The notes under the pieces are model-generated. The model saw only the letters and a list, made by a program, of their open reading frames with translations. It ran no database searches and was not told the origin of the DNA. This document shows positions 378 through 1,863 of a DNA stretch of 64,000 bases, piece after piece. The first letter of the stretch is position 1; each line of letters starts with the position of its first letter. The DNA comes from Oscillospiraceae bacterium (GTDB lineage Bacteria; Bacillota; Clostridia; Oscillospirales; CAG-272). The translations under genes and the position numbers were made by a program. The DNA lies in assembly GCA_015064385.1 (NCBI GenBank), contig SVSI01000003.1, positions 1 through 64,000 on the forward strand, given 5' to 3'.

Positions 378-405
378 TTGATTTTTTTTATTTTTCGTGT
401 ATAAT
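378..405 (+). promoter_or_regulatory. Promoter of the first CNNM leader
   Basis: TTGATT and TATAAT are separated by 16 bases. The inferred transcript starts near 412 and carries a leader of about 195 bases before the transporter start. Confidence 0.75.
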
Positions 406-437
406 ATGTAGTACAAATAATTTTGGAGGATCTTTTA

Positions 438-533
438 ATGGACGGCGACAGTACCGGAGACTGTAACTATAACAATTTTATCTCGGTCAACTATCGAAAC
501 TTCATATATATAAATCAGGTATATCCGAATTGA
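438..533 (+). CDS. Putative 31-residue leader peptide upstream of CNNM transporter
   Basis: A GGAGGA ribosome-binding site precedes an ATG. The peptide begins MDGDSTGD, so it is acidic at the N-terminus, and later becomes rich in Tyr, Asn and Ile. It ends with Gln-Val-Tyr-Pro-Asn and TGA. The Val, Tyr and Pro codons plus one base of the Gln codon form the 5' arm of the following terminator, and the stop lies in its loop. That arrangement is expected of a regulatory leader peptide rather than a functional protein. I do not know a named family for it. A similar Met-Asp short ORF lies before the second CNNM gene of the window. Confidence 0.6.
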   Translation: MDGDSTGDCNYNNFISVNYRNFIYINQVYPN

Positions 534-558
534 TACCATCTTTCGGGTATGCCTTTTT
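518..558 (+). terminator. Attenuator-like intrinsic terminator in the CNNM leader
   Basis: GGTATATCCG (518-527) pairs with CGGGTATGCC (544-553) over ten base pairs, including two G-T wobbles, and is followed directly by TTTTT. An alternative short stem pairs GGTAT (518-522) with ATACC (533-537) and would disrupt the terminator. A ribosome finishing the upstream short ORF would cover the 5' arm, so readthrough should depend on translation. Confidence 0.7.
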
Positions 559-606
559 GTGCTTTAACGATAATTTCAAATTACTTTTCAGGAGATATTA
601 AATAAA

Positions 607-1863
607 ATGAACACCCCCTTATACATAATTATTATGGCTTGTCTCGTGCTTATGTCAGCATATTTTTCGGCAACCGAGACTGCCTTTTCCTCACTTAACA
701 AGGCGCGCCTCAAGGTAATGGGCGAAAAAAGCAAAAAAGCGCGTCTCGCGCTTAAGCTTTCCGAAAACTACGATAAGCTCATTTCGTCAATACTTATCGG
801 AAACAATATCGTAAATATCTCGCTTTCCTCGATTGGTACCGTGTTTTTTATCTATCACTTTGACGACGCGGGTGCAACTATCTCGACCGTTGTTATAACG
901 ATCATAGTCCTCATTTTCGGTGAAGTGTGCCCCAAAAGCATCGCAAAAGATATGCCAGAAGCGTTCGCGGTCTTTTCCGCGCCGATCATACGCGTTTTCG
1001 CGTGGGTGCTTTCTCCGATAAACTTCCTTTTCTCCCTTCTTAAAAAGGGACTCTCGAAAATGCTCAAGGTCAAGGACAGCGAAAAGACGTCGCAGGAAGA
1101 GCTTATAATGATGGTTGAGGAAGTGACCGAGGAGGGAACACTTAACAGCGAGGAAAGTACTCTCGTGCAGAACGCAATAGAGTTTTCCGATCTTAAAGCC
1201 GAGGACATACTCACCCACAGAATAGACATAGAGGCGTTCCCCGTAGATGCGACCAAGGAAGAAATCGCCGAGGCGTTCTCTCAGTCGAAATATTCTCGTC
1301 TTCTCGTTTACGAAGAGAATATAGACAACATCGTCGGAGTCGTTCACCAGAAGGATTTCTATACGGGAACGGGCGTTACCCAAAAAGACATCCGCGACGT
1401 AATGACTGCCCCCATCTTCGTTCTTCCGTCCAAGAAAATAGACGAGCTACTTCGCCTTCTTCAAAAAAACAAATCGCACGTTGCCGTCGTTCTTGACGAG
1501 TACGGCGGAACGTACGGACTCGTAACAATGGAGGATATTCTCGAGGAGCTTGTTGGAGACATCTGGGACGAGCACGACGAGGTTACCGAAAATTACCGCA
1601 GTGTCGGAGAAAACGTTTATAGAGTAAACTGTGCTATGTCGGTTGACGATTTCTGCACGCAGTTTGAGGTAGAGATCGAGACAGAAACGATCTCGCTAAG
1701 CGGATGGGTGACCGAGCAGCTTGCAAAGATCCCCGACGTTGGAGACAGCTTTGACTATCTTAATCTTTCGCTTCGCGTAATTGCGACCGAAAGCCACCGA
1801 GTTACCGAGGTCGAGATAGTTGTAAACGAGATACTCGAAGAAAACGAAGAAGTAAACGTATAA
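607..1863 (+). CDS. CNNM/CorC (HlyC/CorC family) membrane transporter with CBS domains
   Basis: This 418-residue protein has the family's usual order. An N-terminal DUF21 membrane domain spans about residues 1-150, with several hydrophobic segments and the small-residue motif SATETAF near residue 22. A CBS-domain pair covers about 200-320, and a CorC_HlyC domain runs to the end. The family includes magnesium exporters such as MpfA and the CNNM proteins; which ion this one moves is inference. AGGAGA lies 11 bases before the ATG. A leader with a short ORF and terminator precedes it, suggesting transcription attenuation. A paralogue with a comparable leader lies at 43359-44711. Strong hairpin terminator follows. 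Confidence 0.9.
   Translation: MNTPLYIIIMACLVLMSAYFSATETAFSSLNKARLKVMGEKSKKARLALKLSENYDKLISSILIGNNIVNISLSSIGTVFFIYHFDDAGATISTVVITIIVLIFGEVCPKSIAKDMPEAFAVFSAPIIRVFAWVLSPINFLFSLLKKGLSKMLKVKDSEKTSQEELIMMVEEVTEEGTLNSEESTLVQNAIEFSDLKAEDILTHRIDIEAFPVDATKEEIAEAFSQSKYSRLLVYEENIDNIVGVVHQKDFYTGTGVTQKDIRDVMTAPIFVLPSKKIDELLRLLQKNKSHVAVVLDEYGGTYGLVTMEDILEELVGDIWDEHDEVTENYRSVGENVYRVNCAMSVDDFCTQFEVEIETETISLSGWVTEQLAKIPDVGDSFDYLNLSLRVIATESHRVTEVEIVVNEILEENEEVNV

Follow-up and report, generated by a model that had tools for sequence, protein, structure and literature searches.

Among the closest described systems are short leaders and protein N-termini in which acidic residues destabilise the translating ribosome. 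According to PMC11282234, the trigger lies in roughly the first 30 residues and consists of acidic residues that recur next to each other or one apart, and MgtL (EPDP) is the regulatory case. High Mg2+ suppresses this intrinsic ribosome destabilisation in E. coli (PMC9718836). Among CNNM/CorC-family proteins, Salmonella CorC goes up in high Mg2+ (PMC12421838), and the same paper, citing Chadani 2021, describes CorC's own N-terminus as a destabilising sequence. S. aureus needs its CNNM homologue MpfA in high Mg2+, and internal Mg2+ goes up when MpfA is lost (PMC6711546); direct Mg2+ transport by CNNM proteins is debated (PMC6711546, PMC8242095). That leader-ORF attenuation works in Firmicutes is known from vmlR and hflXr, and the literature searched did not mention a leader or attenuator upstream of CNNM/CorC genes of this group.

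The window, by which we mean the whole stretch of 64,000 nucleotides that was analysed, comes from a 1.83 Mb genome of an Oscillospiraceae bacterium that is 96% complete. The original prediction placed a promoter, a Shine-Dalgarno (SD) site, a 31-codon ORF, a 10-bp terminator stem and a run of five T residues in front of a CNNM transporter gene, and the positions of all of them were confirmed to the base. The features are as follows:

378..405, + strand: sigma-70-type promoter, TTGATT - 16 nt - TATAAT (-35 at 378-383, -10 at 400-405)
425..430, + strand: SD site GGAGGA of the short ORF; an SD-like site also precedes the ORF in related loci
438..533, + strand: leader ORF of 31 codons, MDGDSTGDCNYNNFISVNYRNFIYINQVYPN (ATG at 438, stop TGA at 531-533), conserved in relatives
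441..461, + strand: acidic N-terminal stretch, codons 2-8 (DGDSTGD), the proposed ribosome-destabilising segment, from the Asp/Glu profile of 48 leaders
518..527, + strand: 5' arm of the intrinsic terminator, GGTATATCCG, overlapping leader codons 27-30; covarying
528..543, + strand: terminator loop, containing the leader stop TGA (from the sequence)
544..553, + strand: 3' arm of the intrinsic terminator, CGGGTATGCC; covarying
554..558, + strand: terminator T tract TTTTT, conserved in relatives as TTTTTGCG or TTTTTGTG
591..594, + strand: SD core GGAG of the CNNM gene (from the sequence)
607..1863, + strand: CNNM/CorC-family transporter gene, 418 aa, with CNNM, CBS and CorC_HlyC domains

Promoter, SD site, short ORF, intrinsic terminator and gene thus follow one another in the order of a ribosome-mediated attenuator. 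Two of the ten base pairs of the stem are G-U, and the 5' arm consists of the last base of the Gln27 codon and the codons of Val28, Tyr29 and Pro30. A simple hairpin scan misses this terminator, the loop of which is longer than 8, and the fold of the whole 195-nt leader is unremarkable when taken alone (z = -1.35 against shuffles). As the fold of a single sequence cannot tell an element from chance, relatives were collected. On the other side of the leader promoter, the window carries a tRNA gene at 115-187 on the - strand (Rfam RF00005), the perfect TTGACA-17-TATAAT promoter of which (326-298) is divergent from the leader promoter.

The protein encoded downstream matches the Pfam families PF01595 (E 9.8e-50), PF00571 and PF03471, so that the transmembrane domain of CNNM proteins, the CBS pair and the CorC_HlyC domain are all present. 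Its solved relatives are 7m1t, 4hg0 (CorC) and CNNM4, and structures of both the CNNM/CorB and the CorC type were matched. By analogy with the characterised homologues, the protein is predicted to export Mg2+.

To obtain the relatives, 80 CNNM loci from named genome records were combined with more from the family and the class, giving 199 loci with 192 distinct upstream regions. A leader was called where an SD-preceded ORF of 12-65 codons had Asp or Glu at residue 2 and at least 3 Asp, Glu or Pro in residues 2-9. Such ORFs were found upstream of 85 of the 199 CNNM genes, as compared with 0.75% in dinucleotide-shuffled copies of the same regions, and among CNNM proteins with at least 55% identity to that of the window the proportion rose to 49 of 61. 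Control genes from the same loci gave 3 hits in 41, all three preceding another CNNM gene (a paralogue in Acholeplasmataceae), and none in the remaining 38 genes; genes for MgtE importers, used as a second control, were without an acidic leader, with 2 of 30 reaching the score. In a protein tree the window falls into a supported clade of 62 rows (97% SH-aLRT), about 57 of which have the leader, a count that includes duplicate assemblies, among them six duplicates labelled 'none' by the filter. In this clade the layout is a consensus promoter, a short ORF in which about four of residues 2-11 are Asp or Glu, and a covarying terminator. The leader of the window has only three Asp in the first 11 residues, against a mean of 3.9; a stronger one is that of the related locus L047, MDSSDSSDDNGD.

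The leader is absent before many of the more distant CNNM genes, both among the rows of the tree and among the class-level loci. The upstream regions of 20 more distant class-level CNNM genes contained one convincing leader, MEDPLIPDSEDEY (L248), and the element is therefore not universal. A search of 146 family genomes with the DNA pattern ATGGAY(RRY)6 gave 8 matches, two of them CNNM leaders and the rest mostly unrelated ORF starts; with 3 matches for the reversed control, the pattern is too coarse to tell if other genes use the leader. In the sister species, of the same genus as the window (L003/L004, one genome), the ORF is intact and a deletion removes the 3' arm, leaving no credible terminator. 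The switch may have been lost naturally here, or the assembly may be wrong.

For the anatomy of the element, the 62 non-redundant leaders that have a hairpin were compared; some few are doubtful. The 5' arm lies at a median distance of 62 nt from the start codon (80 nt in the window). The ORFs range from 13 to 58 codons, many run through the entire terminator, and in none of the 62 does the stop end more than 10 nt before the 5' arm. In the frame of the ORF, from codon 10 to 12 nt before the arm, there was no stop in 501 codons, as compared with 31 in 480 and 57 in 464 in the other two frames; the ORFs had been picked by their first nine residues and not by their end point. The ORF thus reaches or overlaps the terminator, and it is under selection. 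Of 47 leaders, 41 have a consensus promoter ahead of the ORF (4% in shuffles), and a promoter between terminator and gene was seen in only 2 of the 47. In 48 cleaner leaders the fraction of Asp and Glu was 0.43 in residues 2-6, 0.35 in residues 7-11 and approximately 0.05 from residue 12 onwards; the first two values are inflated by the selection of ORFs for acidic content, the subsequent drop is not. Lys and Arg are near zero at the start of the same leaders.

The stem, with the consensus GGCATAYCTG...CAGGTATGCC followed by TTTTTGCG, was analysed in 43 leaders. Altogether 93.4% of the cells were paired and 9 of the 10 pairs had double changes, with 38 double-change cells observed against 10.5 in shuffles, a number reached in 0 of 500 shuffles. 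Sliding the stem partners against each other destroyed the signal. The original prediction had named conservation of the short ORF in relatives and covariation of the stem as checks, and both came out in its favour: ORF and stem are kept, the distance between start and arm is fixed, no in-frame stop intervenes and the arms covary. The comparison also went beyond it, in showing that the element belongs to a large family and that other CNNM genes have leaders of an Asp/Pro type. On these comparative sequence data, the assignment of an attenuator anatomy is strongly supported.

Neither arm of the stem was more complementary to the upstream leader than were shuffles, so no antiterminator of the kind found in trp-, hflXr- or vmlR-type attenuators was detected. 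Direct occlusion, which needs none, is then the simplest switch. A ribosome on codons 2-11 covers the mRNA to approximately nt 48 of the ORF. The 5' arm begins near nt 62 of the ORF in the relatives and at nt 81 in the window. The footprint of a ribosome on the acidic codons thus stops short of the arm and that of a ribosome late in the ORF covers it, so that completed translation should prevent termination.

We read the element as a ribosome-mediated attenuator of transcription in which magnesium-dependent destabilisation of the ribosome is probably the sensor, and we assign this reading a probability of roughly 60%. Transcription would begin just upstream of the short ORF and get to the CNNM gene only by passing the intrinsic terminator. 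Where the leading ribosome moves past the acidic codons 2-11 toward the stop, the 5' arm would be covered, no hairpin would form and the exporter would be transcribed. A ribosome that pauses or drops off on the acidic chain would still be separated from the arm by about 15 nt or more, leaving the hairpin free to form and to terminate transcription. Early Asp/Glu-rich chains destabilise ribosomes, an effect that high Mg2+ suppresses; ample Mg2+ should therefore turn the exporter on, and it would be off when Mg2+ is scarce. As in MgtL, acidic residues come right after the start codon, in the purely acidic type of the clade of the window and, together with Pro, in the Asp/Pro type before other CNNM genes.

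The occlusion geometry that had been suggested for the window fits across the relatives, and the suggested link between early acidic residues and magnesium agrees with the published work on MgtL and on intrinsic ribosome destabilisation. The earlier interpretation thus stands for the anatomy, the conservation and the geometry of the element, while we infer its further parts by analogy, namely the response to Mg2+, the switching on by translation of the ORF with abortion on the acidic stretch, and the export of Mg2+. Two published observations bear on the mechanism. Yeast N-termini with 4 Asp/Glu mostly did not abort (PMC9718836), which argues against it, and in B. subtilis the RNA polymerase outruns the ribosome (PMC9226507), so that the timing may need a pause site.

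Leaders of other kinds were also seen upstream of CNNM genes. In different clades a putative second class of leader ORFs begins with Asp or Glu and Pro (MDEPPRS, MEEPPLC, MDPLPRSC, MDVPLPATD, MDDVPIPRC, MDDPPL and MEDPPK), an acidic-proline start like that of MgtL. Several of these end in Arg-Cys-stop; the class has a conserved CCCCGA(T/A)... stretch and no clear terminator. Members of this class were noted at L098 (229 nt before CNNM), L099 (185 nt before CNNM), L050, L055, L100-L104, L107, L111, L163-L167, L056, L058, L181 and L188. The occurrence of two recipes before one gene family, one rich in Asp, Ser and Gly and one in Asp and Pro, both predicted to destabilise ribosomes, argues that what counts is a property of the nascent chain and not one particular sequence.

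A third class is found at L117, L119, L125 and L130, with ORFs of the forms MGDNPGPARC...EPP-stop, MGDKPAP...EPP-stop and MSENPGPARRC...SPP-stop. Their conserved ending, Pro-Pro-stop, points to a stall at termination. At these loci the CNNM proteins themselves start with MDGDS or similar, and many CNNM proteins without an acidic leader have an acidic N-terminus, for example MDGDSIIM, MDSDSMGQ and MDTDSIPL (L117, L135, L182, L105, L110 and others). By analogy with the proposal made for CorC, these N-termini may act as the same sensor placed within the gene itself. In Acholeplasmataceae (L075, L078 and L081), where two CNNM genes stand in tandem, a conserved leader ORF, MEDCSSRIEDPTYPEFKDIKHDAFFGVFF..., lies upstream of the first; this leader (MEDCSSRIEDPTYPEF...) crosses a hairpin and T run and ends at or beside the CNNM start codon. 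Importer genes of the mgtE type from the same bacterial family have a recurrent leader ORF of their own (MDAGSSS, MDSGSRG, MDSSGGRG or MDTGSSGG), at L213 (-207), L214 (-292), L218 (-155), L219 (-202), L221, L223, L233 and L235, and no M-box was found in 20 mgtE loci. Leader ORFs may thus control the importer as well as the exporter.

The same attenuator could respond to another signal, such as general ribosome stability or translation capacity (polyamines, K+, ribosomal protein L31, EttA-like factors or translation inhibitors), with the CNNM protein exporting, for example, polyamines. Any factor that stabilises ribosomes affects destabilisation, and L31 and EttA modulate it in published work. 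The protein of the window also matches the model of the polyamine exporter PaeA (145 bits) as well as it does that of CorC (108 bits), and though both scores are below the cut-off, polyamines may on this account be the signal or substrate. Polyamine export is, however, known for one subfamily, and Mg2+ is the ion to which the best studied CNNM homologues are linked, so we regard a different signal as unlikely but worth keeping in mind.

The polarity could also be the opposite, with ribosome loss on the acidic stretch turning the gene on and completed translation turning it off, which is the published logic of mgtL and mgtQ. This is difficult to reconcile with the conserved intrinsic terminator, the 5' arm of which is overlain by the final part of the ORF in virtually all relatives. 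A ribosome at codons 2-11 cannot reach that arm, and no competing structure was detected between the arms and the upstream leader. We consider such an inversion improbable.

About equally doubtful, and a little more so than an inverted switch, are two explanations that dispense with ribosome destabilisation. In one, conservation is at the level of RNA, the run of RRY codons or the stem binding a protein or ligand and the frame being incidental. Codons for Asp, Gly and Asn and the AGY codons for Ser are all RRY, Ser is almost always encoded by AGY, and the stem sequence GGCATAYCTG is conserved beyond pairing. On the other hand, the absence of stops up to the arm is specific to one frame, and in codons 2-11 synonymous change is in excess (0.40 per site, against 0.16 for nonsynonymous change, from 74 close pairs that are not independent). 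Glu codons, which are not RRY, are used, Asp and AGY-Ser are favoured over Gly and Asn (GA 170, AG 86, AA 47, GG 39), and no Rfam family matches the leader. In the other explanation, the acidic nascent peptide is itself the binding site for a divalent cation, in the manner of a DxDxDG-like motif, and alters the progress of the ribosome without destabilising its subunits. Some leaders do resemble cation-binding loops (MDDADGDADPD, MDNADGDADPEN), but most lack such spacing, Pro-containing leaders take its place, and there is already a precedent for generic destabilisation. Least credible of all is an amino-acid attenuator of the trp type that would detect scarcity of Asp, Ser, Asn or Cys. Although Asp, Ser and Asn are frequent in the ORF and leaders of this type precede biosynthetic genes, the gene here encodes a transporter, a stall at the early codons would free the terminator and turn the gene off in starvation, which is the wrong sense, Asp and Glu interchange (MEGDSCEDD, MDGDSSDEDN), and Asp/Pro leaders precede other CNNM genes.

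Returning to destabilisation by magnesium shortage, we are inclined, by a narrow measure, to extend it to a widespread and undescribed class of Mg2+ sensors in Clostridia and relatives, in which an acidic leader would control an intrinsic terminator and turn on exporters in the presence of Mg2+. To our knowledge, this would be the first such regulator outside Proteobacteria. Destabilisation by acidic chains, known as a regulator mainly from enterobacterial mgtL and mgtQ, would then be a recurrent Mg2+ sensor in Gram-positive gut bacteria, and a simple one for Mg2+ export genes, the regulation of which is largely undescribed. The family would supply dozens of natural variants with which to work out what kinds of nascent chain destabilise ribosomes, and it would answer whether the translating ribosome can control an intrinsic terminator in clostridia by abortion and not by stalling.

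Among the known systems, the mgtL leader of mgtA in E. coli and Salmonella is like the leader of the window in being a short ORF with acidic residues right after the start (EPDP), placed before a gene of Mg2+ transport (in the window a predicted one); translation of the mgtL ORF decides transcription of the gene (PMC11282234), as is proposed for the window. It differs in using a Rho-dependent terminator and an RNA switch, in preceding an importer and in being turned on by ribosome loss, whereas the window has an intrinsic terminator and a CNNM exporter-type gene, which ribosome loss would turn off. The leader would thus work like the sensor of MgtL without being an mgtL leader, and, if the predicted polarity is right, it is the mirror image of mgtL, with destabilisation wired in the opposite sense, to exporters. 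In mgtQ, the ORF between mgtC and mgtB of Salmonella, Asp2 and Glu5 likewise destabilise the ribosome and control a Mg2+ transporter (PMC8092293), but this ORF acts on mgtB translation through release of the RBS, inside an operon, and for an importer. For CorC (YbeX) of E. coli and Salmonella, PMC12421838, citing Chadani 2021, presents a CorC-family gene with an output that probably rises with Mg2+ by means of an acidic destabilising N-terminus; there the sensor is the protein's own N-terminus, while in the window it would be a separate leader ORF with a terminator. The attenuators of hflXr in Listeria and vmlR in B. subtilis share the short ORF and the intrinsic terminator, with ribosome position deciding readthrough, yet they stall on antibiotics and use antiterminators, whereas in the leader of the window none was detected and the ribosome must not stall. 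The M-box (ykoK, RF00380), without a match in the window or the whole genome, similarly provides Mg2+ control by transcription attenuation in Firmicutes; it is an RNA aptamer, and the element of the window is a coding leader.
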